Source: Gemmatimonadota bacterium
GTDB lineage: Bacteria; Gemmatimonadota; Gemmatimonadetes; Gemmatimonadales; Gemmatimonadaceae
Reading direction: 5' to 3'
Length of the DNA: 64,000 bases
NCBI GenBank assembly: GCA_028287305.1
Contig: JAQBPX010000014.1
Coordinates: forward strand, 248,001-312,000
The translations under genes and the position numbers were made by a program. Shown piece after piece: positions 4,803 through 58,487 of this stretch. Under the pieces are notes generated by a model. The model saw nothing but the letters and a program-made list of their open reading frames with translations, made no database searches and had not been told where the DNA came from. Every line of letters starts with the position of its first letter. Within the stretch, counting starts at the first letter, position 1.

Positions 4803-7800
4803 TCAGCTGAAGGGGCGTTCTACGTTGCCGGCGAGCAGCTGCTGTGCCCGCAAGCGCTTGCCGAGTTCCTGGTCCACCGTCTCTACGAGCTGCTTCTCGA
4901 AGGCCTGCGCCAGCGTGCGACCGAGGATCGCCGTCTGGGCGGCGTCGATCTCCTTGCCGTTCAGGTAGAAGCTCGCGTTGGAGTAGTCCGCATTCACCGT
5001 GAGCTGGATCGGGCTGCCGGATCCGGCGAGGAGCGCGCTCGGGTAGGCCGGGACCGTGAAGGCAGGCGCACTGAACATCTGCGCCAGCAGCGACTGAATC
5101 TCCGGCAGCGGATCGGTGTTGATCGCGATGGCCTGGAGGAAGTCCGCCATGCGGGTGCCGGTCACTTCGGTGAGGCTCTGCGCCGCATTGGTGATTGCGG
5201 ACGTCGCACCCTCCGCGGCGGCAGGCGCAGCGGCATCCCCTGGGAGAGGCGCCGCCCCTGGGATCGCGCGCAGCGCGCGCAGGATGTCCACGATCTGCTG
5301 CGTCTGGTCCTCGTTGCCCCTCCCTGCGGCGTAGAGATCCTGCAGCGCCTTCACCGCCTTGGCACGACCCGCATCCGTGGTGAGGTCGCTGTCGCCGATC
5401 GCGTTGCGGATTGCCTCCGACGCGCTCTCATAGAGCGCGCTGATCGCCTGCGCGCGCTTCTGAGGGTCATCGATCTGGAACACCTCGAAGTCGGTCTCCA
5501 GCTGCGATCGCGCCGCGGACAGCTGCTGAGCCGCCGTCAGGATCCCAGCCGTCACGGCCGTAGCGCCGGTATGCAGCTCGAGCAGCGCCGCAATCAGATC
5601 CTCGATCGAGAGCGCGCCCAGCTGCACCGAATCAGGGGCTTCCTGAATCTGCTTGAAGAGGGCCCTGATCCGCTCCTCGAGCGTGGCCACGTCCGTTGCC
5701 TTGGACGTGTCGAGGCCATCGAGCAGCTGCTTGATCGCCGGAGACGCACCGCCGTACAGTGCACCGGCTTTCGCCAAACGCTCCGATGCCGTCGAGTCGA
5801 AGAGGTCGAGCTCCTGCTGCAGCCGCTGCTTCGCCGACTGGAACTGCTCAGCCGGGGACTTCTCGCCGGTGATCGCGTTCACCAGTCCCATGATCTGTTC
5901 GATCACTTGGAGGAACTGGTCACCAGTCAGGCCGCCGAGGGCGCCGCTAGGCAGCAGCTCCCCGCCACTCTGCATGGCGGTGAATAGCACCTTGATCTCA
6001 TCGGAGAGGCGCTTGAGGTCGGTCGCCTTGCTGAGATCGAGACCTGCAAAGATCGAGGCGACACCATCGGACAATCCACCGAAGAGGTCGCGGATGCGCT
6101 TCAACTGCTCAGTATTCGAAGCTTGGCCGAAGATCTTCGACTCGGCGTCGAGCTGGGCCATCTTGCCCGTGAAATCGTCGCCGAACTCGGCGAGCCGCAG
6201 CCCGGTGTGGCGGAGCTGCTCGTCAAGCTGACGTAGGGATTCAACAGTGCCATCCACGGTGACGCCCACGGACGCGCCGATGCGTTGAAGCTCGGCGAGT
6301 TCGGCTACCGAAAGGCCAGTAGTAGTAGGCCGACCGTTGATGAGTTGATCCCGGACCTTGTTCGGGCCCGTCACCGCATAGTTCAATCCACGAGTGAGCA
6401 GCGCCTCAGCGGCGCTGACGTCACGAGGCGTGAGGTTGAGAGCTGTGCCGAGGAACCCTGCCTTCTGCGTAAGCTCGAGGATTGCCTTGGTGTTCGCGGC
6501 GATAGTCTCCCGATGCGCCTTCTCCTCGGGCGACTCTTGATTGCCGAGAATCCCTGAGAGCGCCTGCACAATTGCAATTCCACCCCCTACGATGGAACCG
6601 ATAGAGGCGATCTTGCCGGCTGTATCTAGGGCGCCCCAGCCATTTGTAACCTGCTTGGTTGCTGAATCCGTAGACTGCGCGGAGCGGATCTTCGCGATAG
6701 CGCCGGCGACCTGGGCGGTGCTGGACAACATCGCCGCCAGCTCCTTGTTGCCATTCGCGAACACTTGCACCAGCCCGTACGCAGCGCTCGCTGCAGCCTC
6801 AGTAACCGTGGCGATGCGGCCCATCTTGTCATGCTGCTCGCTCAGGATCTTCGCGAGATCCTTGTCTGCACCAAGCTCCTCGAGCAGGACCTTGAGGCGC
6901 GCCGCCTCCATGTCCTTGATCTTCTTCTCATAGTCGAGCCGCTCCACGCTACCCGGCTGCGTTGATGCGCGCTTCTGGTAGAGCGCGACGATCTGATCGT
7001 CGAGGCCGCGACGCGCGCCAGCGCTGGGATTGGAATCGGCATTGAACTGCTGCAGCGCCTGGTCGGCCGTCTCGATGGCCGCGGTGGCGTCAATGAAGTC
7101 TTGCCGGATCCGGCGCGCTGACTCGAGCTGCGCACCTGAGGCGCCTTCCTGTCGCATCTTCTCCAGCAAGCGATCGAGCGCCAGGGTCAGGTTGTCGACT
7201 TGCGACGCGGTGGAGTCGACCAAGAGGTCATCCATTTGCGCCTGCATCGCGGCCGCCATCTCCCGCCGGGCAATCATCACCTTGGAGACCAACGCATCCA
7301 CCTGCGCCTTCGTATCCGCCTCGAAGCGTGACACTGCCTCCGGCGCAGCACCGTCGCTCTTCATCTCACGGAGCTTCTGCGCCGCGCTCTTCTGGAACTC
7401 GGCCAGCTTCGCGAGCGCCTGGTCCACGCCGCTCTGCGCACCGCCGGAGATCCCCGCCGCGAGGTTGTTAGCGATCTCCGCTTCCAGGTCCTCCGACGCC
7501 TTGCGCCACTTCTCAGCGATCGCGAGCCGCTTCGCTTTCTCCTCTGCCGTCTCCGGGAGTACGAGTTTCTTGGTAGCGGCAGGACCGCCACTCACCTCTA
7601 ATGCACTCGTTAGACCCCGGCGCTCGGCCTCCGCTGCGATGGCGTGCAGGTTCGCCTGAACGGTCGCGAGGTTCTGCGCGGCGACAGCTCCGGTAGTGGC
7701 GAGGATTCCAAGCCCACGCTGCAGCGCGAGGAGATCGCTCGCCGAGAGGGACCCGAGGCGCGAGGATGACAACGCTGCGGCCTCTCCGCCGCCGCCCACG

Positions 7801-44696: not shown

Positions 44697-45490
44697 TGAA
44701 CGAGACCAATCTGGACGCGCCGATCGGGGCCACTGCGGAACGGAAGGTCGTGCTGCAGTCCCCCGGCCAGGCGCCCGATCCCAAGTGGGTGATCGTGACG
44801 CGTGGCATCAAGCGCGAGTACGACATGGGTGGTGAAGTGGTGCGCGCGCTCCGCGGCGTGGACCTGGCGATCAGCCGCAACGAGTACGTGGCGATCATGG
44901 GGCCCTCGGGCTCCGGCAAGTCCACGCTCATGAACGTGATCGGCTGCCTCGACACCCCGAACGCCGGCGAGTACTGGCTGAACGGGACACTGGTCTCCTC
45001 GATGTCGGACGACGCGCTCGCGCGGGTCCGCAACAAGGAGATCGGCTTCGTCTTCCAGACGTTCAACCTGCTCCCGCGCGCCACCGCGCTGCACAACGTG
45101 GAGCTGCCGCTGGTGTACGCCGGCATTCCCTCGGACGAGCGGAAGAAGCGCGCGAAGGAAGCGCTGGCACGCGTGCAGCTGGACCATCGCATGGACCACC
45201 GCCCCAATGAGCTCTCCGGCGGACAGCGCCAGCGTGTCGCCATCGCGCGCGCGCTGGTGAACCGCCCGTCCATCCTCCTGGCCGATGAGCCCACGGGAAA
45301 CCTGGACTCGCAGACCTCCGAGGAGATCATGCGCGTGTTCGAGGAGCTCGCGACGCAGGGCCAGACGGTGATCATGGTGACGCACGAGCCGGACATCGCC
45401 TCTCACGCCCGCCGCGTGATCGTGCTGCGCGATGGCGAAGTGGCCACCGACGACCGCCGCGAGCAGTTCACGCAGCGCCTGGGGATGTAA
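44696..45490 (+). CDS. MacB/LolD-type ABC transporter ATPase
   Basis: A 264-residue protein from ATG 44696. Walker [11 protein letters not shown] (69-77), Q-loop [22 protein letters not shown], signature [15 protein letters not shown], Walker [14 protein letters not shown] and H-loop MVTHE. It powers the permeases nearby. It is the only ATPase gene in a locus with six permeases. The N-terminal ~30 residues before [16 protein letters not shown] are a longer leader than usual. Confidence 0.95.
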
Positions 45491-45620
45491 CGCACCACCA
45501 ATTCCGGACAGTTCACGGGGCGCGGCGGCTGACACCTTTGCCGCTGCGCCCCGTAGGTGTTTTTGGCCGCTGTTTGCAGTTGCCAAGGCCCAAAGTCCAA
45601 AGCCCAAAGCCCGCCCTTCC

Positions 45621-46862
45621 ATGCCCCTCTTCGACGCCGTTCGGCTCGCCCTCCAGACCCTGCGCGTGCAGAAGCTCAAGAGCTTCTTCACGCTGCTCGG
45701 CGTCACGATCAGCGTCACCTTCCTGATCGCGGTCGTCTCGGTGGTCGAGGGGATGAGCAAGTACGTGGAGCAGGACTTCGCCGGGAAGTTCCTGGGCGTG
45801 AACACCTTCAACGTCCGCCGCTTCCCCGACATCCAGAACGACGTCACGGACCTCGAGTGGCGCGCCTGGCAGCGGCGTCCCCGCATCACGCCGGATGACG
45901 GCGAGGCCATCAAGGCCGCGCTCCCCGCCGACGCCAGGTGGGCCATGCAGGACCTCCAGTGGGGCCAGGCCTCATCGGCGTTCAAGACGAGCGGCCAGCA
46001 GGTGCTCTCCATGGCCGTCACGCCGGGGTACTTCGGCATCAAGGACCTGAACATCACCACCGGCCGCATCTTCAACGACCAGGAAGACGCGCTCGGCTCC
46101 AACGTGGTGGTGATCGGCAGCGAGATCGCCGAGCAGTACTTCCCGAACCTCGATCCGCTCGGGCGGGAGCTGCGCATCAACAAGTTCCCCTTCACCGTGA
46201 TCGGCGTGCTCGAGAAGCAGGGCACGGTGTTCGGGCTGAACCTGGACCGGCAGATCATGGCGCCGTTCCACTCGTACATGTCGATCATCACGCGCGCCCG
46301 CCTGAACCTCTACGGCGTGGTGGTGCAGGCGTCCACGCCCGCCGCGTATCCCGCGCTGCAGCAGACGGTGCGCGAGGTCATGCGCAAGCGCCATCGCCTG
46401 CGCCCGAGCGAGGACGACAACTTCGTGCTCGAGGGCTCGGACACCGCGCTCGCGCAGTGGCTGACCATCAAGAAGTTCCTGGTGCTCGCGGGGATGTTCC
46501 TCCCCGCCATCGGGCTCGTGGTGGGCGCCATCGTGATCATGAACATCATGCTGGTGGCGGTGGCCGAGCGCACGCGCGAGATCGGCATCCGCATGTCGAT
46601 CGGCGCGCGGCGCCGTGACATCCTGCGCCAGTTCCTGATCGAGTCCGCCACGCTGAGCGTGGTGGGCGCCATCCTGGGCATCGTGCTCGGCATCGGCCTC
46701 TCGAAGGGCGTGGCCGCCGTGAGCCCGCTTCCCGCGGCCGTGGCGCCCTGGTCCATCTTGCTTGCTGTGACGGTCGGCGCCGGCGTCGGCATCATCGCCG
46801 GCGCCTATCCCGCGAGCCGCGCCAGCAAGCTCGATCCGATCTTCGCCATGCGGCAGGAGTAG
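45621..46862 (+). CDS. MacB-type ABC permease, A-type, pair 1
   Basis: A 413-residue protein from ATG 45621. Four transmembrane segments: residues ~22-45 (SFFTLLGVTISVTFLIAVVSV) and three after ~280 (VLAGMFLPAIGLVVGAIVIMN, then the SVVGAILGIVLGIGLSKG and AVAPWSILLAVTVGAGVGIIAG helices), with a large periplasmic MacB domain between. The coupling helix VAERTREIGIRMSIGARRRDILRQFL contacts the ATPase. A-type features: opening FDAVRLALQTLRVQKLKSFFTLLG and a VRRFPD segment after the first helix. Preceded by a CCAAAG(C/T) short repeat near 45,590. Confidence 0.9.
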   Translation: MPLFDAVRLALQTLRVQKLKSFFTLLGVTISVTFLIAVVSVVEGMSKYVEQDFAGKFLGVNTFNVRRFPDIQNDVTDLEWRAWQRRPRITPDDGEAIKAALPADARWAMQDLQWGQASSAFKTSGQQVLSMAVTPGYFGIKDLNITTGRIFNDQEDALGSNVVVIGSEIAEQYFPNLDPLGRELRINKFPFTVIGVLEKQGTVFGLNLDRQIMAPFHSYMSIITRARLNLYGVVVQASTPAAYPALQQTVREVMRKRHRLRPSEDDNFVLEGSDTALAQWLTIKKFLVLAGMFLPAIGLVVGAIVIMNIMLVAVAERTREIGIRMSIGARRRDILRQFLIESATLSVVGAILGIVLGIGLSKGVAAVSPLPAAVAPWSILLAVTVGAGVGIIAGAYPASRASKLDPIFAMRQE

Positions 46863-46865
46863 CCC

Positions 46866-48116
46866 ATGACCATCGGCATGCGCATCTACAGCCTGGTCGA
46901 GGGCGTTCGCATCGCCTTCGACGCGATCCGCTCGAACAAGGTCCGCGCTGGTCTCACCATCCTCGGCATCGCCGTGGGCGTGTTCGTGGTCACGGTGATG
47001 ACCGCCGCCGTGCACGGCATCAACGAGGGCGTGGCGAGCAGCCTCGCCGCCGCGGGGCCGAACACCTTCTTCATCACGCGCTGGCCCGCCGAGATCAACA
47101 GCTGCAACGGCTCGGCCGACAGCTGCCCGTGGCGTCGCAGCCCGCCCCTGACCATCGTGCAGGCGCAGGAGATCGCGCAGCTGCCCATGATCGCCGGCGT
47201 CACCGCGCACATGAACTCCACCTACCCGGTGAAGTTCGCCGATCGCGAGTTGCCCGGCGCGACGATGGACGCCTACTCGCCCGAGTGGTTCGACGTGAGC
47301 GGCGGCGACATCGTGCAGGGCCGCAACTTCACGCAGGCGGAGTACGACGCCGGTTCCCCGGTGGTGCTCGTGAACCAGCGCGTGGTGGACCGGCTCGGCC
47401 TGGGCGCGGACCCCATCGGCAAGGAGATTCGCGTCAACGGCGAGCAGTTCTCGCTGATCGGCGTCTACAATGCGCCGGTGAACGTCTTCGACAGCGGCGA
47501 CAAGGGAAAGCTCGTGACGCCGATCACCACCGCGCAGCGCAAGCTGAACATGGGCGTGCGCTGGCTGGACCTCACGGTCAAGCCGAAGCCCGGCGTGGTG
47601 CGCGACGAGGCGATGGATGAAGTGCTCGCGGTGCTCCGCGGCATGCGTCACCTGCGCCCCAGCGCGCAGAACGACTTCTTCATCTCCACGCCCGAGAAGA
47701 TCCTCCAGCTCTACAACAAGATCGTGGGCGTGTTCTTCATCGTGATGATCGTGCTCTCCGCCATCGGCTTGCTGGTCGGCGGCGTGGGCGTGGTGGCGAT
47801 CATGATGATCTCCGTCACCGAGCGCACGCGCGAGATCGGCGTGCGCAAGGCGCTCGGCGCCACGCGCAAGACCATCCTCTGGCAGTTCCTGGTGGAGGCG
47901 GTGACGCTCACGGGCGTCGGCGCCGTGGTGGGACTGCTCGTGGGCGGCGCGGTCACCTGGGGGATCCGCTCCTTCAGCCCGATCGCTGCCAGCACGCCAC
48001 CGCTCGCCATCGTCGCCGCGCTCATCTCCAGCGCGCTGGGCGGCGTGGTGTTCGGCCTGGTGCCGGCGCTGCGCGCCTCGAAGCTGGACCCGGTCGACGC
48101 CCTCCGCTACGAGTAA
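46866..48116 (+). CDS. MacB-type ABC permease, B-type, pair 1
   Basis: A 416-residue protein from ATG 46866, three bases after the A-type stop. It has the same four-helix plus periplasmic plan. B-type marks: LVEGVRIAFDAIRSNKVRAGLTILGIAVGVF, then GPNTFFITRWP and a two-cysteine loop SCNGSADSC before the MacB domain. The coupling region is TERTREIGVRKALGATRKTILWQFLVEAVTLT. It probably pairs with the preceding A-type subunit as a heterodimer. The late ASTPPLAIVAALISSALGGVVFGLVPALRAS helix is typical. Confidence 0.9.
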   Translation: MTIGMRIYSLVEGVRIAFDAIRSNKVRAGLTILGIAVGVFVVTVMTAAVHGINEGVASSLAAAGPNTFFITRWPAEINSCNGSADSCPWRRSPPLTIVQAQEIAQLPMIAGVTAHMNSTYPVKFADRELPGATMDAYSPEWFDVSGGDIVQGRNFTQAEYDAGSPVVLVNQRVVDRLGLGADPIGKEIRVNGEQFSLIGVYNAPVNVFDSGDKGKLVTPITTAQRKLNMGVRWLDLTVKPKPGVVRDEAMDEVLAVLRGMRHLRPSAQNDFFISTPEKILQLYNKIVGVFFIVMIVLSAIGLLVGGVGVVAIMMISVTERTREIGVRKALGATRKTILWQFLVEAVTLTGVGAVVGLLVGGAVTWGIRSFSPIAASTPPLAIVAALISSALGGVVFGLVPALRASKLDPVDALRYE

Positions 48117-48129
48117 GCCAGGAACACGG

Positions 48130-49368
48130 ATGCCATTCCTCGAGGCAGTGAAGCTCGCCCTCGCCACCATCCGCGTGCAGAAGCTGAAGAGCTTCTTCAC
48201 GCTGCTGGGCGTCACGATCGGCGTGATGTTCCTCATTGCGGTCGTGTCGATCGTGGAGGGGATGAGCAAGTACGTCGAGGAGGATTTCGCCGGGCGCCTG
48301 CTCGGCGCCAACACGTTCACCGTCCGCCGCTTCCCGTGGTTCGGCAATAACACCACGGAAGCCGAGTGGCGCGAGTGGCAGCGCCGCCCGCGCGTCTACT
48401 ACCGAGACGTGGCGCTGGTGCGCAACGCGCTCCCCCCGGGAACGCACTATGCCGTGGACAGCCAGGAGATTCTCTGGGCCACGGCCGCGTACTCGCGCCC
48501 GCGCCAGGTCGAAGCGCACGCGGTGGACGGCGACTACTTCACGATCAAGAAGTACGACCTCTCCGCCGGTCGCGCCTTCACGCCGCAGGAGATGGAGATC
48601 GGCTCCAACGTGCTGGTGATCGGCGACGAGGTGGCCAAGTTCTTCTTCCAGGACCTCTCGCCCGTCGGGCGCGAGCTCCGGATCGGCGGGATTCCCTACC
48701 AGGTGATCGGGGTCGTCGAGCACCAGGGCAACCTGTTCGGGCAGTCGCTCGACAAGCTGGCGATCGGCCCCTTCAACTCGCCGCTGCACCGCCTCACCAA
48801 CCCGCGCGGCGACATCGACGGGCTCATGGTGCAGGCGCCGAACGAGCTGATGATGAACGAGGCGATGGAGACCACGCGCGAGGTGCTGCGCGGCAACCGT
48901 CACCTTCGCCCGAGCGAGCGCGACAACTTCGTGATGGAGACGTCGGCCAGCGCGCTGGTGTTCTTCGAGAAGCTCAAGGGCACCATGACCATCGTCGGCA
49001 CCGCGCTGCCGGCCATCGGCCTGGTGGTGGGTGGCATGGTGATCATGAACATCATGCTCGTGGCGGTGGCCGAGCGCACGCGCGAGATCGGCATTCGCAA
49101 GGCACTGGGCGCGCGCCGCAAGGACATCCTCAACCAGTTCCTGGTTGAAGCGGCCACGCTGAGCACCGTGGGCGCGATCGTGGGCATCGTGCTGGGGCTG
49201 GTCGCGGCGAAGGTGATCGAGTCCACCACGCCCCTTCCCGCCGCGGTAGCGCCATGGTCCATCGTGGCCGCCACGCTGCTCGGCACCGTGGTCGGCATCG
49301 TCTCGGGCGTCTACCCGGCCCGCCGTGCATCGTCGCTCGACCCCATCGAAGCACTGAGGCAGGAGTAG
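48130..49368 (+). CDS. MacB-type ABC permease, A-type, pair 2
   Basis: A 412-residue protein from ATG 48130, close to the pair 1 A-type protein: LEAVKLALATIRVQKLKSFF, then VEGMSKYVEEDFAGRLLGANTFTVRRFP. The periplasmic region differs most (NNTTEAEWREWQRRPRVYYRD), so the substrate or partner may differ. The coupling helix is VAERTREIGIRKALGARRKDILNQFLVEAATLS. Thirteen bases separate it from the preceding gene. Confidence 0.9.
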   Translation: MPFLEAVKLALATIRVQKLKSFFTLLGVTIGVMFLIAVVSIVEGMSKYVEEDFAGRLLGANTFTVRRFPWFGNNTTEAEWREWQRRPRVYYRDVALVRNALPPGTHYAVDSQEILWATAAYSRPRQVEAHAVDGDYFTIKKYDLSAGRAFTPQEMEIGSNVLVIGDEVAKFFFQDLSPVGRELRIGGIPYQVIGVVEHQGNLFGQSLDKLAIGPFNSPLHRLTNPRGDIDGLMVQAPNELMMNEAMETTREVLRGNRHLRPSERDNFVMETSASALVFFEKLKGTMTIVGTALPAIGLVVGGMVIMNIMLVAVAERTREIGIRKALGARRKDILNQFLVEAATLSTVGAIVGIVLGLVAAKVIESTTPLPAAVAPWSIVAATLLGTVVGIVSGVYPARRASSLDPIEALRQE

Positions 49369-49370
49369 TC

Positions 49371-50642
49371 ATGCGCGTCGGATCCCGCTTCCTCCACGCG
49401 CTCGAGGGCGTGGGCATCGCCATCGATGCGCTGCGCGCCAACCGCGTCCGCGCCTTCCTCACCATCATGGGCGTGGCGCTCGGCGTGTTCGTGGTCGTCG
49501 CACTCACCAGCGTGGTGCGCGGCGTGAACGAGAGCTTTGCGCGCGACGTGGAGGCAGCCGGTCCAACGAGCTTCTTCGTGTACCGTCGCGACATCGGCGG
49601 CTTCCAGAGCTGCGACGGCACGGTGGAGACCTGCCCCGAGCGCCGCAACCCGATGATCACGATCGACGAGGTGCATGCGATCGAGCAGCTCCCGATCATC
49701 AAGGCAGCGGTGGCGCACGTCGCGAACGGCAATCGCTACAAGTACATGGATCGGGAGCTGAACGCCGGCACCGAGGCGTACACGCCCAACTGGACCGAGG
49801 TGGATGGCGGCGACATCTTCCCCGGCCGCAGCTTCACCCCTACGGAAAATGCGACCGCCGCGCGTGTCGTGATCATCAACGACAAGCTGTCGGAGACGCT
49901 GTTCGGCCAGAGCGATCCCCTCCAGAAGGAGATCATGATCGACGGCGTGAAGTTCACCGTCATCGGGCTCTATCACTACACGGCAAGCCCCATGGGCACG
50001 CCCACGAGCGCCGGCGGCGGCGATTCGCCCAAGGCGATTATCCCCTGGGAGACGGCCAAGCGCCACCTGAAGTTCTGGATGCGCGGCAACAACCTGATCA
50101 TCAAGCCGCGAGAGGGTGTGGCCCTCGAGACAGCCACCGACGAAGTCACGGCCACCCTGCGCGGCCGTCGCGGCCTCAAGCCGGCGGTGAAGGACAACTT
50201 CGTGATCATGACGCAGGACCGACTGATGGGCGTCTACAACCAGCTGTTCGGGACCTTCTTCGTCGTGGGCATCGCGCTCTCGAGCGTGGGGCTTCTGGTC
50301 GGCGGCGTGGGCGTGGTGGCGATCATGATGATCTCCGTCACCGAGCGCACGCGCGAGATCGGCGTGCGCAAGGCACTCGGCGCCACGCGCGCCACGATCC
50401 TCTGGCAGTTCCTGGTGGAGGCGGTGACGCTCACCGGGATCGGCGCGGCGGTGGGCCTCGTACTCGGGATCGGCGTTTCGGTGGCCGTGCGCACTATCTG
50501 GCCGAGCATCCCCGCATCCACGCCCCTCTCGGCCGTGCTCGAATCGCTGGGCGCCGCGGCGTTCACCGGGATCCTGTTCGGAATGCTACCGGCCATGCGC
50601 GCGTCCAAGCTCGACCCGGTGGTGGCGCTCCGCCACGAGTAG
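49371..50642 (+). CDS. MacB-type ABC permease, B-type, pair 2
   Basis: A 423-residue protein from ATG 49371, two bases after the A-type stop. B-type opening LEGVGIAIDALRANRVRAFLTIMGVALGVF and the cysteine loop SCDGTVETCPERRNP, matching pair 1's SCNGSADSC. A Gly-rich insertion (SPMGTPTSAGGGDSPKA) occurs in the middle of the periplasmic domain. It ends the plus-strand operon, convergent with pair 3. Confidence 0.9.
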   Translation: MRVGSRFLHALEGVGIAIDALRANRVRAFLTIMGVALGVFVVVALTSVVRGVNESFARDVEAAGPTSFFVYRRDIGGFQSCDGTVETCPERRNPMITIDEVHAIEQLPIIKAAVAHVANGNRYKYMDRELNAGTEAYTPNWTEVDGGDIFPGRSFTPTENATAARVVIINDKLSETLFGQSDPLQKEIMIDGVKFTVIGLYHYTASPMGTPTSAGGGDSPKAIIPWETAKRHLKFWMRGNNLIIKPREGVALETATDEVTATLRGRRGLKPAVKDNFVIMTQDRLMGVYNQLFGTFFVVGIALSSVGLLVGGVGVVAIMMISVTERTREIGVRKALGATRATILWQFLVEAVTLTGIGAAVGLVLGIGVSVAVRTIWPSIPASTPLSAVLESLGAAAFTGILFGMLPAMRASKLDPVVALRHE

Positions 50643-50645
50643 CCG

Positions 50646-51905
50646 CTACTCGTACCGCAGCGCGTCGATCGGGTCGAGCCGCGCCGCGCGTCGCGCGGGC
50701 AGGAAGCCGAACACCAGCCCGATCGACACCGACACGAACACCGCGAGCAGCGTGAGGTCGAGCGGGGGGCTCGCGTCGATCGACATCAGCATCGTGACCA
50801 GCTTGCCCAGGATCAGCCCGATCGCGATGCCGATCGCGCCGCCCATCCCGGTGAGCGTCGCGGCCTCCACCAGGAACTGCGTCTGGATGTCCCGCTGCGT
50901 GGCGCCGATTGCCTTCCGGATCCCGATCTCCTTCGTGCGCTCCGTGACCGAGATCATCATGATCGCCATCACGCCGATGCCGCCCACCAGGAGCGCCACC
51001 CCGGACAGCACGATCATCACCAGGAAGAACACTCCCGTGATCTTGTTGAAGGTGTCGAGGATCTGGTCCTGCGTCATCATGTCGAACGAGTCGTGATCGC
51101 CCGGCCGTAGCCTGCGCATCTCGCGCATCGCCACCGTCACTGCTTCCTGTGCGTCGGTCACGGTGACACCGGGCCTGGGCTTGATGGCGATGAAGAGGCC
51201 GTTCGTCCGGTCGTACTGCATCTGGTGGTCGGCCATCAGGTAGGGCACGATGGCGGAGACCTCCTGGCCGGGCGGCTGGAAGATGTTCGCCTCGGGCTGG
51301 TACACGCCGATCACGCGCGCGGGCCTGCCACTGATCCGCACCCACTTGTCGAGCGGATCGATCTCGCCGAAGAGCTTGCGCGTGACGCCGGCGTCGAGCA
51401 CCGCAACGGCGGATCCCGCCTTGAGCTCGGCCTTCGTGAACCAGCGCCCTTCCGTGAGGTCGCCCCCCTGGATCTCGGTGAAGCGGTCGTCGGACGCCAT
51501 CACCGTGGTCTGCTGCGTGCGGACGCCTCCGAACTCCACTCGGGAGAACACCTGCGCCCACATGCCGGCGTACTGGATCTGTGGCAGCTGCGAGATGCGG
51601 TCCGCCTCCGCCGGCACGAGCTCCGGGCGCACGCGCACCCACTTGGGGAGCCGGTCCGGATTGAGCGGCGTCTGCGAGAAGACGCGCATCACGTAGAAGG
51701 TCGTGGGCCCCGCGATCTCGAGCGTGTGCACGATCTGGTCGCGCAGCCCGGCCACGATGGACGCCATCGTCATCACGGTGGAGACGCCGATCACCACGCC
51801 GAGGATGGTCAGCGCCGAGCGCATCTTGCTCGCGCGCAGCGTGTCGAGCGCGATCACGACGTTCTCGCCGACGCGCTCCGGCGAGATCCAGGCGGGAACC
51901 CTCAT
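50646..51905 (-). CDS. MacB-type ABC permease, B-type, pair 3
   Basis: A 419-residue protein from ATG 51905, on the minus strand, downstream of its A-type partner. It has VGENVVIALDTLRASKMRSALTILGVVIGV and the coupling region TERTKEIGIRKAIGATQRDIQTQFLVEAATLT. Unlike the other two B-types, it lacks the two-cysteine loop after the first helix (there it reads MRVFSQTPLNPDRLPKWVRVRP). No ATPase gene accompanies pair 3; it may use the one at 44,696. Confidence 0.9.
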   Translation of the reverse strand: MRVPAWISPERVGENVVIALDTLRASKMRSALTILGVVIGVSTVMTMASIVAGLRDQIVHTLEIAGPTTFYVMRVFSQTPLNPDRLPKWVRVRPELVPAEADRISQLPQIQYAGMWAQVFSRVEFGGVRTQQTTVMASDDRFTEIQGGDLTEGRWFTKAELKAGSAVAVLDAGVTRKLFGEIDPLDKWVRISGRPARVIGVYQPEANIFQPPGQEVSAIVPYLMADHQMQYDRTNGLFIAIKPRPGVTVTDAQEAVTVAMREMRRLRPGDHDSFDMMTQDQILDTFNKITGVFFLVMIVLSGVALLVGGIGVMAIMMISVTERTKEIGIRKAIGATQRDIQTQFLVEAATLTGMGGAIGIAIGLILGKLVTMLMSIDASPPLDLTLLAVFVSVSIGLVFGFLPARRAARLDPIDALRYE

Positions 51906-51909
51906 CGCG

Positions 51910-53151
51910 TCATTCCGCCCTCAGCGCGGTGATGGGATCGAGCTTCGCCGCGCGGCTCGCGGGATACACCCCGAACAGCACGCCCACGCCGGCACCGAGG
52001 CCCAGTGCGAGCAGCACCGACCACGTGGTCACGCGCGCCGGCAACGGGCTGACCAGGGAGATCAGCGACGCGAACGCCCACCCGCTGGTCGCGCCCATCG
52101 CACCGCCGAGCGTGGCGAGCATCACCGCCTCCGCCAGGAACTGCCGCTGGATGTCGCTGTAGGTGGCGCCCACTGACTTCCGCAGCCCGATCTCGTGCGT
52201 CCGCTCCTTCACGCTCATGAGCATGATGTTCATGATCACGATGCCGCCCACCACCACGCCAATGGCAACCATGGCCGGCACCACCGAGAAGAGCACCTTC
52301 GTGAGCTGCTTCCAGAAGTCCACGAGCGAGTCGGAGGTCTCCACCGTGAAGTCGTCGTCGATCCCCGGCCGGAGGTGATGCGCCACGCGCATGGCTTCCT
52401 GCGCCCGCTGCATTGCGCCCGCAACGTCCGCCGCCTGCGCCAGCTTCACCGACACGGTGGTCGTCTTCCGCCGGCCGTACAGCGGCTCGAACGCCGTGAT
52501 CGGCATGAGCACGAAGCCGTCGAACGACTGGCCGAGCACGCGCCCCTTCGCGGCCACCACACCCTTGATCGTGTATCGCTGCCCGTGGATCATCAGCTCC
52601 TGCCCCACCGGCTCGGCGCCCTCGAACAGCTTCTCGGCGATGTCGGCGCCGATCACCACCACTCGGCGCTTCTGGCTCACGTCCAGCTCGTTGAGGGGCT
52701 CGCCCTGCGCGAAGCGGTAGTCCTGCACCACCTGGTAGTCGGCGGTCACGCCGAACACCAGCACGTCGCCGAGCGTGCGGTTCCGCCACTCGATGTCGGA
52801 TTGCGGCGTGGGCCAACCGCTCTGGAGGGAGACGGCCACGGCCTCGGGGATCGCCTTGCGCACGGCGTCGGCGTCCTCAGGGCGGACGATGGGCCGCTTG
52901 CGAATGCGCTGCAGCTCGGCGTCGTCGATGAAGCCGAGGCTGATGGGGGTGCGACGGACCTGGAAGACGTTCGACCCGATCATGGCGTCGGCGATGTTCT
53001 CCTTCACGTAGGCGTTCATCCCCTGGATGATCGCGACCACCGCCACGAGGAAGGCGACGGAGACGATGATGCCGAGGAGCGTGAAGAAGGACCGGAGCTT
53101 GTTGGCCCGGATCTGGGTGAAGGCCGTGAGGATGACGTCGCCGAACCGCAT
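51910..53151 (-). CDS. MacB-type ABC permease, A-type, pair 3
   Basis: A 413-residue protein from ATG 53151. A-type marks: FTQIRANKLRSFFTLLGIIVSV, then IGSNVFQVRRTPIS. The coupling region is KERTHEIGLRKSVGATYSDIQRQFLAEAVMLA. The sequence is the most diverged of the A group. It is the first gene after the divergent promoter region it shares with bshB1, so pair 3 is transcribed away from bshB1 and could share its control. Confidence 0.9.
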   Translation of the reverse strand: MRFGDVILTAFTQIRANKLRSFFTLLGIIVSVAFLVAVVAIIQGMNAYVKENIADAMIGSNVFQVRRTPISLGFIDDAELQRIRKRPIVRPEDADAVRKAIPEAVAVSLQSGWPTPQSDIEWRNRTLGDVLVFGVTADYQVVQDYRFAQGEPLNELDVSQKRRVVVIGADIAEKLFEGAEPVGQELMIHGQRYTIKGVVAAKGRVLGQSFDGFVLMPITAFEPLYGRRKTTTVSVKLAQAADVAGAMQRAQEAMRVAHHLRPGIDDDFTVETSDSLVDFWKQLTKVLFSVVPAMVAIGVVVGGIVIMNIMLMSVKERTHEIGLRKSVGATYSDIQRQFLAEAVMLATLGGAMGATSGWAFASLISLVSPLPARVTTWSVLLALGLGAGVGVLFGVYPASRAAKLDPITALRAE

Positions 53152-53268: not shown

Positions 53269-54009
53269 ATGTCCCAACCAGGCTCCGCGCCCGACTCCGT
53301 GCACGTGCTCGCGATCGCCGCGCATCGCGACGACGTGGAGCTCACCTGCGGCGGCACCATGATCAAGGCGGTGAAGCAGGGCTACCGCACGGGCATCCTC
53401 GACCTCACGCAGGGGGAGATGGGAACGCGCGGCAGCGCCGACCTGCGCCGACAGGAATCGGAAGCCGCCGCCAGCATCCTGGGCGCCTCGTGGCGCGACA
53501 CGCTCGCGCTGCCCGACTCCGGCATCACCAACACGCCGGAGACGCGCGAGAAGCTCGCGCGCGTGATTCGCGCGCTCAAGCCGCGGGTGGTGATCGCTCC
53601 TGCACCGCAGGGCCGGCATCCCGATCACACGGCTGCCGCGCAGCTCGTGCGGGACGCATGCTTCGTCGCCGGCCTCGCGAAGGTCGCCCCCGAGGTCCCG
53701 AAGCACCGGCCGTTCAAGGTGATCAACACCATCACCTACCGGCAGGACTTCCTGAAGCCGAGCTTCGTGGTGGACATCAGCGACGAGTTCGAGCAGAAGC
53801 TCGCGGCGGTCAAGTGCTTCGCATCGCAGTTCGACGGCGAGACGCAGGCCGGCGAGGTGTACCCGAATGGCGAGCCGTTGTACGACGTGATCCGCCACTA
53901 CGCCGCGTACTACGGCGCGCTCATTCGCGCGCGCTACGGCGAGCCGTTCTTCATGGCGGAGATGCAGGAAGTCGGCGACGTGGTGTCGCTCGGCGTGTCC
54001 ACCTTCTGA
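53269..54009 (+). CDS. bshB1: BshB1-like N-acetylglucosamine-malate deacetylase (PIG-L family)
   Basis: A 246-residue protein from ATG 53269. PIG-L motif AAHRDDVELTCGGTMIK (the usual AHPDD-E is AHRDD-E here) and the second zinc-histidine motif GRHPDHTAAAQL. LDLTQGEMGTRGSADLRRQE is the mark of the BshB1 group, which deacetylates GlcNAc-malate in bacillithiol synthesis. No bshA or bshC is in the window, so the bacillithiol role rests on subfamily features. Ends nine bases before the dioxygenase gene. Confidence 0.85.
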   Translation: MSQPGSAPDSVHVLAIAAHRDDVELTCGGTMIKAVKQGYRTGILDLTQGEMGTRGSADLRRQESEAAASILGASWRDTLALPDSGITNTPETREKLARVIRALKPRVVIAPAPQGRHPDHTAAAQLVRDACFVAGLAKVAPEVPKHRPFKVINTITYRQDFLKPSFVVDISDEFEQKLAAVKCFASQFDGETQAGEVYPNGEPLYDVIRHYAAYYGALIRARYGEPFFMAEMQEVGDVVSLGVSTF

Positions 54010-54017
54010 CCAGGCAC

Positions 54018-54764
54018 ATGGCTGAGGATTCCGGCGTCACGTATCCCTCCTACCTCGCGCTCGACCAGCTGCTCACCCTGCAGCGGCCGCTCTCGCAGCC
54101 CGAGCACGAGGACGAGCTCCTGTTCATCGTGGTGCACCAGTCCAGCGAGCTGTGGTTCAAGGAGATCCTCCACGAGCTCGAGGGGCTGCTCGGCGCCTTC
54201 ACGCGATTCGAGTCGGGGATGTGCCTCTGGCGCATGAACCGCATCAACGCGCTGATGCGCATCGTGTCGGCGCAGCTCTCGGCGCTCGACACGCTGCCGC
54301 CGCAGCACTTCGCGGCGTTTCGCGGGTTCCTGGGCACGTCGAGCGGCTCGCAGAGCGAGCAGTTCCGCGCGATCGAGGCCGCGTCGGGCATGCGCGACCC
54401 GCACTTCGTGGCCACGCTCCAGGAGCATGGATCAGTGCCGGCGTCGGTGCAGCGGTGGCTCGAACGCCCCACGCTCGAGGCGCTCTTCATGGACCTGCTC
54501 GCGCACGAGGGCGGCACGCTCGAGCAGCTCTACACCGGGCCCGCGCCGGGCACCTTGTTCTTCCTGGCCGAGGCGCTGCTCGAGTATGAACAGCAGTTCG
54601 CGCAGTGGCGATTCAAGCACGTGCAGCTGGTGGAGCGCGTGATCGGGCCGATGACCGGCGGTACCGGCGGAACGCTGGGCGCCAAGTACCTGGCGCGCAC
54701 GGTGGCCAACAAGTTCTTCCCGGCGCTGTGGGAAGTGCGCGCGAAGTTCTTCGGGGCGAAATGA
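54018..54764 (+). CDS. kynA: Tryptophan 2,3-dioxygenase
   Basis: Haem enzyme that opens the indole ring of L-tryptophan to N-formylkynurenine. A 248-residue protein from ATG 54018. Motifs: LLFIVVHQSSELWFKEILHEL with the active-site His40, FRGFLGTSSGSQSEQFR, and the haem-ligand region WRFKHVQLVERVIGPMTGGTGGT. Family length is ~270. No formamidase of the KynB or alpha/beta types follows; instead an amidase gene overlaps its stop (ATGA). Confidence 0.93.
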   Translation: MAEDSGVTYPSYLALDQLLTLQRPLSQPEHEDELLFIVVHQSSELWFKEILHELEGLLGAFTRFESGMCLWRMNRINALMRIVSAQLSALDTLPPQHFAAFRGFLGTSSGSQSEQFRAIEAASGMRDPHFVATLQEHGSVPASVQRWLERPTLEALFMDLLAHEGGTLEQLYTGPAPGTLFFLAEALLEYEQQFAQWRFKHVQLVERVIGPMTGGTGGTLGAKYLARTVANKFFPALWEVRAKFFGAK

Positions 54765-56206
54765 TCGACGAGGGCGCTGCAGCCCTCGCCGCGCACATCC
54801 GCGCCGGCCGCATCACCTCGCTCGACGCCACGAACGCCTTCCTCGCGCGCATCGCCGAGCGCAATCCGGCGCTGAACGCGATCGTGATCCACGATGCCGA
54901 CGGTGCCCGCACGCGCGCGCGCGCGGCCGACGAGGCGCTGGCGCGCGGCGAAGTGTGGGGCCCGCTGCACGGCGTCCCGATCACGATCAAGGACAACTGG
55001 GAAGTGAAGGGGCTGCGCGGCACCGGGGGCATCCCGCTGCGCGGGGATCACGTGGCCGACTGGGACGCGACCGTCGTTGCGCGCCTCCGTGCCGCCGGCG
55101 CGGTGATCATGGGCAAGACCAACGTCCCGCTGTTCTCGTACGACTGGCAGACGAACAGCCCGTACTTCGGCCGCACCATGAACCCGTGGAACGTGGGCAC
55201 CACGCCGGGCGGCAGCTCGGGTGGCAGCGCCGCGACCATCGCGAGCGGGATGTCGGCGCTCGAGTATGGGTCCGATGCCGCGGGCTCGATCCGGGTCCCA
55301 GCGGCCTTCTGCGGGATCTGCGGCATCAAGCCCACCGAGAATCGAACCTCGCTGCACGGCATGCTTCGCGTTCCCGGAAGCCCGCCTCCCGCGGCGCGCC
55401 ACATCATCTGCGGTGGGCCCATCGCGCGCTGCGTGGCCGACCTGCGACTCGCGCTGCAGGTGGTCGAGGGCCCCGACGGCTTCAAGCCCGACGTGCTCGA
55501 GGCCCGCGAGACGGATCCCGGCCCGCGCGAGGTGAGCGAGCTGCACGTGCTCTGGTGCGACGTGTTCCCCGGGGCGGTCGCGTCACGCGCCGTTCGCGAG
55601 ACCATCGAGCAGCTCGCCGCGCAGCTCGCGGCATCGGGCGCGCGCGTCACGCGCGTGGCGCTGCCCTTCGACGCGACCGAGGCGATGCAGGTGTGGGCCG
55701 AGGTGAACGGCGCAGAGATGCTCGCCACGCTGCCGCCCGGACTCGGCGTGATGGTCGCCGCCATGTTTCGCGTGCTGCTTGGCGGAGGGCCGCTCACCAG
55801 GGGACTCACGCGCGGGCTCACGAGCGGCATGCGCCGCTACGCGCGCTCCCTGCGCAAGCGCGACCGCCTGATCATCGCGATGGACGAGCTGCTGAAGGAC
55901 GCCGACCTGTTCCTCTGCCCCGTGGCAGGCACCACCGCGATCCCGCACCAGAAGCCCGGTCGCAAGGTGCTCGTGGACGGGCGCCGCGAGCGATACGACG
56001 TCGCACTCGGCGCCCACGTCATGCCCTTCAACATCACCGGGCATCCCGCGGCGGTGATCCCGGTGCGCGTGGTGGAGGGCATGCCGGTGGGCGTGCAACT
56101 GGTGGGGCACCGCTGGAAGGACGTCGCGCTGCTGCGCGCCGCGGAGGCAATCGAGGGCATGGTCGGCTTCTCGGCGCGGCCCCCGGGAGCGATGCCGGGG
56201 GGCTGA
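54761..56206 (+). CDS. Amidase-signature family hydrolase
   Basis: A 481-residue protein from ATG 54761. The Ser-cisSer-Lys triad is intact: Lys77 in GVPITIKDNW, the GGSSGGSAA loop (Ser152/153), and nucleophile Ser176 in GSDAAGSIRVP. The start overlaps the tryptophan dioxygenase stop (ATGA), so both are translated together. Family members hydrolyse many amides. The coupling suggests, but does not show, an amide from tryptophan breakdown, such as N-formylkynurenine, as substrate. The C-terminal GVQLVGHRWKDVALLRAAEAIE is typical. Confidence 0.85.
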   Translation: MIDEGAAALAAHIRAGRITSLDATNAFLARIAERNPALNAIVIHDADGARTRARAADEALARGEVWGPLHGVPITIKDNWEVKGLRGTGGIPLRGDHVADWDATVVARLRAAGAVIMGKTNVPLFSYDWQTNSPYFGRTMNPWNVGTTPGGSSGGSAATIASGMSALEYGSDAAGSIRVPAAFCGICGIKPTENRTSLHGMLRVPGSPPPAARHIICGGPIARCVADLRLALQVVEGPDGFKPDVLEARETDPGPREVSELHVLWCDVFPGAVASRAVRETIEQLAAQLAASGARVTRVALPFDATEAMQVWAEVNGAEMLATLPPGLGVMVAAMFRVLLGGGPLTRGLTRGLTSGMRRYARSLRKRDRLIIAMDELLKDADLFLCPVAGTTAIPHQKPGRKVLVDGRRERYDVALGAHVMPFNITGHPAAVIPVRVVEGMPVGVQLVGHRWKDVALLRAAEAIEGMVGFSARPPGAMPGG

Positions 56207-56214
56207 AAACGCCC

Positions 56215-56220
56215 TATATT
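56215..56220 (+). promoter_or_regulatory. -10-like TATATT six bases before cysteine desulfurase ATG
   Basis: TATATT, six bases (GTTGTC), then ATG 56227, in the 20-bp gap after the amidase gene, again with no ribosome binding site. The layout is the same as at bshB1. Confidence 0.55.
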
Positions 56221-56226
56221 GTTGTC

Positions 56227-57384
56227 ATGGCGGAGCCTATCTACCTCGACCACGCGGCCACGACCCCGGTTCGCCCCGAGGTCCTCGCGGCCATCGAGCC
56301 GTTTTTCGGCCCGCGCTTCGGGAACCCCTCCAGCATGCATCGCTGGGGGCGCGAGGCTCGCGCCGCGCTCGATGAGGCGCGGTCCCGCGTCGCCGCCTGC
56401 CTGGGCGCGCAGCCGGATGAGCTCTGCTTCACATCGGGCGGCACCGAGGCCGACAACCTCGCGATCCTCGGCGCCTGGCGTGCCCATCGCGACGCAGGGC
56501 GCACCGCCCTCGTGACCACGCCCATCGAGCACAAGGCGGTGCTCGCGGCCGTGCACCAGGCGGCGAAGGAGGGCGGCGAGGAGCGCTTCACGAGCATGAC
56601 GCGAGACGGCGTAGTGGATGTCGCGAGCTTTCGCGCGATCACAAACGCCAACGTGTCTGTCTGCAGCATCATGTGGGTGAACAACGAGATCGGCACCATC
56701 CAGCCGATCCCCGAGCTCGCGCAGTACGCGCACGAGCAGGGCGCGTTCTTCCACACCGACGCGGTGCAGGCCTTCGGCAAGGTGGCGATCGATGCGCGCG
56801 CCGTGCCCTTCGACGCACTCTCCATCTCGGGCCACAAGATCGGCGCCCCCAAGGGCTGCGGCGCGATGTTCATCCGCCGCGGCGCGGTGATCGAGCCGCT
56901 GTTCCACGGCGGCACGCAGGATCGCGGCCGCCGCCCGGGCACCGAGAACGTTGCCTACGCCGTGGGACTCGCCGTGGCAGCGGAGCTGGCCGTGAAGGAG
57001 CGCGAGGAGCACTGGCGCACGCTCGAGGCGCAGCGTGACCGCCTCGAGGCGCTGATTCTCGAGAAGGTGCCGGACGCGATCATCCATGGACGTGGCGCAC
57101 CGCGCGCGCCGCACGTGTCGTCCATCAGTGTGCCGGGCACCGACAGCGAGTCGCTGCTGATGGCGCTCGACCTGCGCGGCATCGCCGCCTCGGCCGGATC
57201 CGCCTGCCAGAGCGGGAGCATCACGCCCAGCCACGTGCTCGCGGCGATCGGCGTGAGCGCCGACGTGGCGTCGGCGGCCATTCGCATGTCGCTCGGCTCG
57301 CTCACCACCGACGAGTGCATCGCGCGCGTGGGCGAGGTCTTCCCCGCGCTGGTGCAGAAGGCGCGCGGGATGGTCGCGGCCTGA
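56227..57384 (+). CDS. Cysteine desulfurase (NifS/IscS family)
   Basis: PLP enzyme that moves sulfur from cysteine to acceptors. A 385-residue protein from ATG 56227. PLP Lys204 is in SGHKIGAPKG and the catalytic Cys327 in ASAGSACQSG; YLDHAATTPV and FTSGGTEADN are standard. The GSACQSG loop is long and flexible, as in class I desulfurases. Next to mnmA (overlapping TGATG), it probably supplies sulfur for tRNA 2-thiouridine as well as Fe-S clusters. Confidence 0.93.
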   Translation: MAEPIYLDHAATTPVRPEVLAAIEPFFGPRFGNPSSMHRWGREARAALDEARSRVAACLGAQPDELCFTSGGTEADNLAILGAWRAHRDAGRTALVTTPIEHKAVLAAVHQAAKEGGEERFTSMTRDGVVDVASFRAITNANVSVCSIMWVNNEIGTIQPIPELAQYAHEQGAFFHTDAVQAFGKVAIDARAVPFDALSISGHKIGAPKGCGAMFIRRGAVIEPLFHGGTQDRGRRPGTENVAYAVGLAVAAELAVKEREEHWRTLEAQRDRLEALILEKVPDAIIHGRGAPRAPHVSSISVPGTDSESLLMALDLRGIAASAGSACQSGSITPSHVLAAIGVSADVASAAIRMSLGSLTTDECIARVGEVFPALVQKARGMVAA

Positions 57385-58487
57385 TGCGCGAGCGCGTGCT
57401 CGTCGCCATGAGTGGCGGCGTGGACAGTTCCGTGGCCGCAGCGCTGCTGGTGCAGCAGGGCTACGACGTGGTCGGCGCGACCATGAAGCTCTTCTGCCAC
57501 GACGAGAAGGACATTCCCGACCGGCCTTGCTGCTCGCTCGACTCGGTGAATGACGCGCGCCGCGTCTGCGAGACGCTCGGCGTCCCGCACTACGTGCTGA
57601 ACCTCGAGAGCGCGTTCTCGCACGACGTGGTGGACGACTTCGTGGCCGAGTACGCCGCGGGTCGCACGCCGATCCCCTGCGTGCGCTGCAACACGTTCAC
57701 GAAGTTCCGCGACCTGCTCCGCAAGGCCGAGGGCATCGACGCGCGCTGGATCGCGACGGGCCACTACGCACGCATCGAGAACGGCGTGCTGCATCGCGGC
57801 CAGGATCACGCCAAGGACCAGTCGTATTTCCTCTGGGGGATCGATCGTGGCGTGCTGTCGCGCATGCTGCTGCCGGTGGGGGACCGCACCAAGGCGCAGA
57901 CGCGTGACGTCGCGCGGCAGCTGGGCCTGCAGGTGATCTCGGAGAAGGCCGAGAGCCAGGACATCTGCTTCGTGCCGGATGGCGACCATACGAGGATCAT
58001 CCGCAAGAGGCTCGGAGCGGATGCCCCGGCGCTCTCGCAGGGGCCGTTCGTGCTGGTGAACACGGGCGAGGTGATCGGGATGCACGCAGGCTTCGCGCGC
58101 TTCACCATTGGCCAGCGCCGCGGGCTGCCGGGTGGGTTTCGCGAGCCGATGTTCGTGGTGGACATTCGCCCCGCCGATCGCGCCGTGATCATCGGCCCGC
58201 GCGAGGCGCTGCTCGGCAAGGGCGTGGTGGCGCGCGAGATGAATTGGCTGGTGGCGCCACTCGAGCCGGGTGCCGAGGTCGAAGTGCAGGTGCGCCATAG
58301 AGCCGAGCCGGCCCGGGGAACGCTGGTTCGCGTGGACGGCGAGGAGATCGAGGTGGCGCTCGAGGAGCCCGTGTCCGCAATCACCCCGGGCCAGTCACTC
58401 GTGCTCTATGACGGGGAGCGCGTGCTGGGCGGCGGAGTGATCGAGCGAGGGCTGGGCGTGCGGGGGCTGCCGGTGCTCGCGGCGTAG
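57384..58487 (+). CDS. mnmA: tRNA-specific 2-thiouridylase MnmA
   Basis: Adds sulfur at C2 of the wobble uridine in tRNA Lys, Glu and Gln. A 367-residue protein from ATG 57384. PP-loop AMSGGVDSSVAA (8-19), the tRNA-binding GHYARI, TIGQRRGLPG, and catalytic Cys residues in PIPCVRCN (99 and 102) and SQDICFVP. The CxxC in place of DxxC fits the Fe-S-cluster-binding class of MnmA rather than the persulfide-only class. Coupled to the desulfurase gene. Confidence 0.95.
   Translation: MRERVLVAMSGGVDSSVAAALLVQQGYDVVGATMKLFCHDEKDIPDRPCCSLDSVNDARRVCETLGVPHYVLNLESAFSHDVVDDFVAEYAAGRTPIPCVRCNTFTKFRDLLRKAEGIDARWIATGHYARIENGVLHRGQDHAKDQSYFLWGIDRGVLSRMLLPVGDRTKAQTRDVARQLGLQVISEKAESQDICFVPDGDHTRIIRKRLGADAPALSQGPFVLVNTGEVIGMHAGFARFTIGQRRGLPGGFREPMFVVDIRPADRAVIIGPREALLGKGVVAREMNWLVAPLEPGAEVEVQVRHRAEPARGTLVRVDGEEIEVALEEPVSAITPGQSLVLYDGERVLGGGVIERGLGVRGLPVLAA

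Follow-up and report, generated by a model that had tools for sequence, protein, structure and literature searches.

The conversion of N-formylkynurenine, the product of tryptophan 2,3-dioxygenase (TDO, encoded by kynA), to kynurenine requires a formamidase, and according to the available part of PMC4243253 this step has already been invented twice, once as the zinc enzyme KynB and once as a serine alpha/beta hydrolase. The same text describes KynB as a binuclear zinc enzyme with a fold of its own. A literature search, mostly of open-access papers, produced no recognized description of an amidase-signature (AS) kynurenine formamidase. Here we compare with these systems a locus in which the gene for an AS amidase lies directly behind kynA, in the slot that kynB takes in relatives.

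The kynA-amidase locus

The window, by which we mean the whole stretch of 64,000 nucleotides that was analyzed, corresponds to C12:248001-312000 in an assembly of 4,371,569 bases and 39 contigs with a listed completeness of 100%. Its gene content suggests that the bacterium belongs to the Gemmatimonadaceae. The features around kynA are:

53269-54009, + strand: bshB1, bacillithiol biosynthesis deacetylase (TIGR04001, 243.7 bits against a cut-off of 182.5)
54018-54764, + strand: kynA, short-type tryptophan 2,3-dioxygenase, 248 aa, ATG to TGA (PF03301, E 2e-44)
54761-54764, + strand: ATGA, the 4 nt shared by the kynA stop and the start of the amidase gene (sequence)
54761-56206, + strand: AS amidase gene, 481 aa, ATG to TGA, in the kynB slot (PF01425, E 2.5e-96)
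56207-56226, + strand: gap between the amidase gene and nifS, with the AT-rich element TATATTG (sequence)
56227-57384, + strand: NifS/IscS-type cysteine desulfurase (PF00266, E 1.5e-67; TIGR03402, 443.9 bits, under the cut-off of 530.75)
57384-58487, + strand: mnmA, tRNA 2-thiouridine synthase (NF001138, 388.3 bits against a cut-off of 284)

The original prediction had described a complete AS amidase gene overlapping the kynA stop codon, and this description proved accurate. Both kynA and the amidase gene encode true homologues with confident predicted folds and are not chance open reading frames. Farther upstream (45432-53149), inspection of the open reading frame list by eye revealed several tandem MacB/FtsX-like ABC permeases, four on the + strand facing two on the − strand.

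The amidase matched PF01425 with 323.9 bits (cut-off 27) over the entire profile, from position 1 to 445 of 445, and this was its sole Pfam match. Alignment placed K77, S152, and S176 in the positions of the Lys-cisSer-Ser triad at a constant offset from the FAAH triad. The protein contains the Gly/Ser-rich signature GGSSGGS and shares the nucleophile loop SDAAGS with its nearest relatives. Its AlphaFold model (pLDDT 90.0, pTM 0.91) has the AS fold, the best 50 Foldseek matches listed being amidases, GatA, FAAH, and further hydrolases of the AS family. Identification of the protein as a KynB (PF04199/TIGR03035, with the metal motif HxGTHxDxPxH) or as an alpha/beta-hydrolase formamidase was rejected, as Pfam gave PF01425 only and the fold is that of AS enzymes; indoleacetamide hydrolase (NF005688, 206.6 bits against a cut-off of 532) and GatA (TIGR00132, 199.3 bits against 481.1) were rejected on their scores. 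No NCBIfam subfamily cut-off was reached, the best match being PRK06170 (NF004816). The genome encodes four AS amidases, one of them probably GatA, and codon usage in the amidase gene is native and resembles that of its neighbors (RSCU correlation 0.97, GC3 0.915). The amidase departs from the conserved consensus at 31 of 162 positions, a number that is uninformative because lone lineages among clustered relatives depart equally often (31 of 162 also for the lone-lineage relative L106). In the alignments and profiles, no sequence feature of the amidase points to N-formylkynurenine as its substrate.

Near-identical AT-rich elements (TATATTG) precede bshB1 (53269) and nifS (56227) at a short distance from their start codons. 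When this motif, which was picked from the window first and counted in relatives afterwards, was allowed at most one mismatch, it occurred upstream of bshB1 in 12 of 51 relatives (1.1 expected by shuffling) and upstream of nifS in 9 of 37 (1.2 expected); it occurred upstream of kynA in 0 of 52 and upstream of mnmA in 0 of 35. Because of this enrichment before bshB1 and nifS and absence before kynA and mnmA, we propose that bshB1-kynA-(kynB or amidase) probably forms one unit and nifS-mnmA a second, separate one; the element itself is probably a promoter type of these bacteria, and kynA would be transcribed together with the amidase gene. A scan for promoters and terminators gave no signal clearly exceeding that of shuffled sequence.

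The slot behind kynA in relatives

Matches to PF03301 were present in 111 of the 148 genomes of the family; when sorted by hand according to score and coverage, they comprised 100 short-type, 9 canonical, and 2 unclear cases. Among the 60 kynA loci fetched (8 canonical, 52 short-type), bshB1 adjoins kynA in almost every one of the 52 short-type loci, and in 26 of these 52 the gene after kynA encodes a KynB of group 1, the kynA-linked one of several KynB-fold groups that a tree distinguished in the family, giving the order bshB1-kynA-kynB. The kynA-kynB junction was measured in 25 of the 26 loci; the exception, L043 (G015), has a kynB split across two frames at about 5805-6424, due to either a frameshift or a sequencing error. 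In 8 of the 25 the junction is a 4-nt overlap identical to that between kynA and the amidase gene in the window, in 16 others kynB starts between 20 nt before and 42 nt after the kynA stop, and in L081 the distance is 67-103 nt. Four loci (L131, L132, L133, and L134) lack the short kynA and have kynB directly behind bshB1; there the dioxygenase gene has apparently been lost from between bshB1 and kynB. Where KynB is absent from the slot, either nifS comes directly next or other genes follow at greater distance. A Pfam run on 8 downstream open reading frames from 7 such loci left nifS, at least 9 nt away, as the sole recognized gene close behind kynA; a few unassigned open reading frames begin right behind kynA, for example in L058 (no Pfam match) and L086.

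Group 1 is a credible formamidase, since the tree puts it and the KynB references from B. anthracis and B. cenocepacia on one side of a fork (support 84, not starred), and since it retains the equivalents of Trp20, the metal ligands, and Ser149, residues given as criteria for KynB in the available parts of PMC4243253 and PMC6117287, and is present in all nine genomes with indoleamine 2,3-dioxygenase (IDO). IDO was found in 9 of the 148 genomes (G021, G047, G053, G068, G108, G129, G138, G141, and G142), none of which has a TDO, the two enzymes being mutually exclusive in this set; the presence of group 1 in all nine fits a shared N-formylkynurenine intermediate. The IDO of Gemmatimonas aurantiaca belongs, according to the available part of PMC4217691, to a branch with effective enzymes, and in, e.g., G047 and G053 the IDO gene adjoins a kynureninase gene scoring over its cut-off. 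Judged by gene content, the link between KynB and TDO is loose: group 1 is present in 72 of 109 genomes whose TDO was assigned to a type and in 22 of 37 without TDO, 9 of these 22 being the genomes with IDO.

In this genome PF04199 matches occur on contigs C4 and C16 only, and the window lies on C12; the original statement that neither known formamidase type is present was thus borne out, for the window, in the case of the cyclase type, KynB. Searches with a group-1 profile gave about 250-365 bits for full-length group-1 genes and about 166 bits or less for paralogues, with group-1 genes truncated at contig ends and the canonical KynB of G111 (175 bits) falling near the border. The best score in this genome, 135.9 bits for the C16 gene, is within the paralogue range, and by this measure the kynA-linked KynB orthologue is absent.

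As the amidase occupies the exact kynB slot and the kynA-linked kynB is missing, it is a reasonable candidate formamidase. The explanation that we tentatively favor, while rating it somewhat short of probable, is that kynB was displaced at its own position by an AS amidase whose function is to remove the formyl group from N-formylkynurenine. The operon would have changed in this lineage from bshB1-kynA-kynB to bshB1-kynA-amidase. KynA would convert L-tryptophan to N-formylkynurenine, the putative substrate from which the amidase would cleave the formyl group to yield kynurenine and formate. Ser176 would act as the nucleophile, the cis-Ser/Lys pair would consist of Ser152 and Lys77, and the reaction would pass through a formyl-enzyme intermediate. 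With only slightly less confidence, we consider that the amidase may represent a third class of kynurenine formamidase, not homologous to the other two, which inherited both the position of kynB and its translational coupling to kynA. Position, junction, KynB loss, and enzyme class all agree with displacement, whereas the lack of a second example and the uncompensated losses of kynB described below argue against simply assuming it. The loose link between KynB and TDO also counts against it, as does the lack of a sequence feature pointing to N-formylkynurenine. The original idea of a non-homologous formamidase is therefore strengthened by the slot, the similar junction, and the missing kynA-linked kynB, and weakened by the restriction of the pair to one genome.

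The survey of kynA neighborhoods for this amidase versus kynB that had been suggested with the original prediction went against a recurrent pairing: an amidase gene behind kynA was seen at none of the 60 kynA loci of the family, leaving this genome as the only case, and kynB loss without the amidase was common. According to hand-made lists, group-1 KynB is present in 68 of 100 short-kynA genomes and missing from 32, including this one; among those at least 90% complete it is present in 45 of 69 and missing from 23 of the 68 others when this genome is excluded. The window amidase was found in none of the other 31 short-kynA genomes without group-1 KynB. When four proteins were concatenated for a tree with 53 rows, the window grouped with G040, which has KynB in the slot, and with G012 and G118, which have no KynB; next to this group were G013, G019, G041, and G063, all without KynB, and the presence of KynB changed at least 8 times over the tree. 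On this tree, kynB loss without amidase replacement is frequent in the window's own clade. Since near kin lack both KynB and the amidase, kynB loss need not be compensated by an amidase.

These uncompensated losses favor the main rival to displacement, namely that the loss of kynB came first, as in the sister lineages, and that the gene inserted later behind kynA encodes an AS amidase acting on something unrelated, a different amide or a carbamate, and is merely co-expressed; we consider this chance insertion doubtful, while taking it seriously. It also draws on the distribution of the amidase. At E 1e-80 the amidase was matched in 2 of the 148 family genomes, this one and one at 38% identity that carries KynB in the slot. 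A search of 395 phylum genomes matched 11, this one included, and the ten others were 38-51% identical. Queries with KynA, KynB, and kynureninase gave no match near any of 20 loci of amidase relatives (9 from the phylum search, 10 from named genomes, and 1 from the family), and those relatives in other orders and classes thus have neither kynA nor kynB nearby. AS enzymes are, moreover, broad in substrate range, as stated in the available part of PMC9420511. Chance insertion does not, however, account readily for the exact kynB position with its 4-nt overlap, for an enzyme class that matches the need of the pathway, or for the content of the KynB-less slots in relatives, where, apart from a few unassigned open reading frames, nifS was the only recognized gene close by.

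The C16 paralogue and the short-type KynA

A further alternative to displacement, which we regard as unlikely, is that the KynB-fold protein encoded on C16 serves as this genome's formamidase and that the amidase has some other role. The original prediction had named a kynB-type gene elsewhere in the genome as evidence that would count against it, and one does exist here, but it is a separate paralogue. The C16 gene fell within the group-2 clade (SH-aLRT 99), outside the clade of kynA-linked KynB. It scored 151.5 bits with TIGR03035 against a cut-off of 223.05, a cut-off also missed by the group-1 genes of relatives and exceeded in just 1 of 148 genomes; the other cyclase gene, a distant one located on C4, gave 51.5 bits. 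All 14 group-2 loci read (L116:6352-6981, the C16 locus of this genome, and L117-L120, L139-L142, L144, L145, and L147-L149) lie near gnd and zwf of the pentose phosphate pathway, and 8 of the 14 include an acyl-CoA dehydrogenase gene; the 13 other group-2 genes are 64-74% identical to that on C16. Group 1 coexists with group 2 in 7 of the 14 genomes, which speaks against the paralogue as the formamidase, whereas its occurrence in several same-clade genomes without group-1 KynB speaks for it. The residues are likewise divided: the C16 protein keeps the metal ligands (HxGTHxDAPxH, the second His, and Glu) and the conserved Ser and carries Tyr, also aromatic, where KynB has Trp20, but Leu and Glu replace the equivalents of Pro148 and Asp151. 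The paralogue could still have formamidase activity. Isatin hydrolase, which has a KynB-like fold, opens a cyclic amide; it is therefore worth considering, by analogy, that the gnd-zwf paralogue is possibly a lactonase of the oxidative pentose phosphate pathway, standing in for 6-phosphogluconolactonase.

Displacement of kynB by a formamidase also presupposes a working KynA. KynA matched PF03301 with 152.8 bits (cut-off 34.9) and the TDO equivalog TIGR03036 with 183.3 bits, under the cut-off of 390.7; it is a short, divergent TDO type that lacks a stretch of 23 alignment columns which both aligned canonical TDOs of the family possess. In an alignment of 18 rows, Y9, Y12, F36, H40, R102, and H201 were invariant and T216 was conserved in at least 90%. 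The GTGG loop, the tyrosines, the distal and proximal histidines, and the arginine are retained, all at positions that correspond to those of the Xanthomonas campestris enzyme. The AlphaFold model of KynA (pLDDT 81.8) matched X. campestris TDO with a Foldseek E of 3.3e-11, and TDO was the only enzyme among the best 50 matches listed. From its sequence and model, the window KynA is probably a TDO, and it would presumably be active as such in this genome.

The later fate of kynurenine in this genome we infer from gene content. A kynureninase-like gene on C10 scored 161.9 bits against a cut-off of 246.4; at E 1e-30, TIGR01814 found a match in 136 of 148 genomes, 19 of them over the cut-off, and TDO-less genomes were included. 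In G043, which has no KynB, a kynureninase-like gene (C5:28004-29556) stands divergently beside the short kynA. Synthesis of NAD from tryptophan was considered and rejected: since 3-hydroxyanthranilate dioxygenase (3-HAO) had no match in this genome and NadA is present, tryptophan is probably not the NAD source, and the gene content suggests that NAD is made from aspartate. For freshwater and wastewater Gemmatimonadota MAGs, a kynurenine route to quinolinate is stated in the available part of PMC10581226.

That the short KynA feeds no kynurenine pathway, being an altered dioxygenase or yielding another tryptophan product, and that the substrate of the amidase is this product or an indole amide, is the least probable explanation of all: the missing 23-column segment, the score far under the TDO equivalog cut-off, and a kynureninase-like gene that is under its own cut-off and of a kind also found in TDO-less genomes would allow it, but KynA retains the fold of TDO together with its mapped catalytic positions, half of the short-type loci (26 of 52) combine short KynA with KynB, and the amidase falls far below the cut-off of the indoleacetamide hydrolase model.

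Comparison with known enzymes

If displacement of kynB by a formamidase is correct, the AS amidase would be a third solution to the formamidase step and a clean case of in-place displacement, and it would offer a starting point for the many relatives in which tryptophan dioxygenase is retained but KynB is not; should the amidase gene have landed there by chance, there is nothing unusual about the find. With KynB (PF04199, TIGR03035) the amidase shares the slot, the 4-nt junction with kynA seen in some relatives, and the proposed reaction; it differs from that zinc enzyme in being unrelated in sequence and in having a Ser-cisSer-Lys triad. The eukaryotic-type alpha/beta-hydrolase formamidase is similar in using a serine nucleophile, with a covalent acyl intermediate that would be expected in the amidase too, but its fold and triad are different. 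Within the AS family, PRK06170 amidase (NF004816) matched the window amidase over nearly its full length, yet with 363.4 bits against a cut-off of 503. Among the matches listed, the nearest solved structures in both sequence and fold were the AS urethanases UMG-SP2 and UMG-SP3, metagenome enzymes known for acting on carbamates; UMG-SP2 is 33% identical to the amidase (phmmer E 6.6e-66, Foldseek E 2.1e-39) and has the nucleophile loop SDIGGS in place of SDAAGS. The bacterial aryl acylamidase 4yj6/4yji (Foldseek ranks 12 and 17) has family and fold in common with the amidase at 24-25% identity and, as its name indicates, cuts aryl amides, which is the chemistry that N-formylkynurenine would need.
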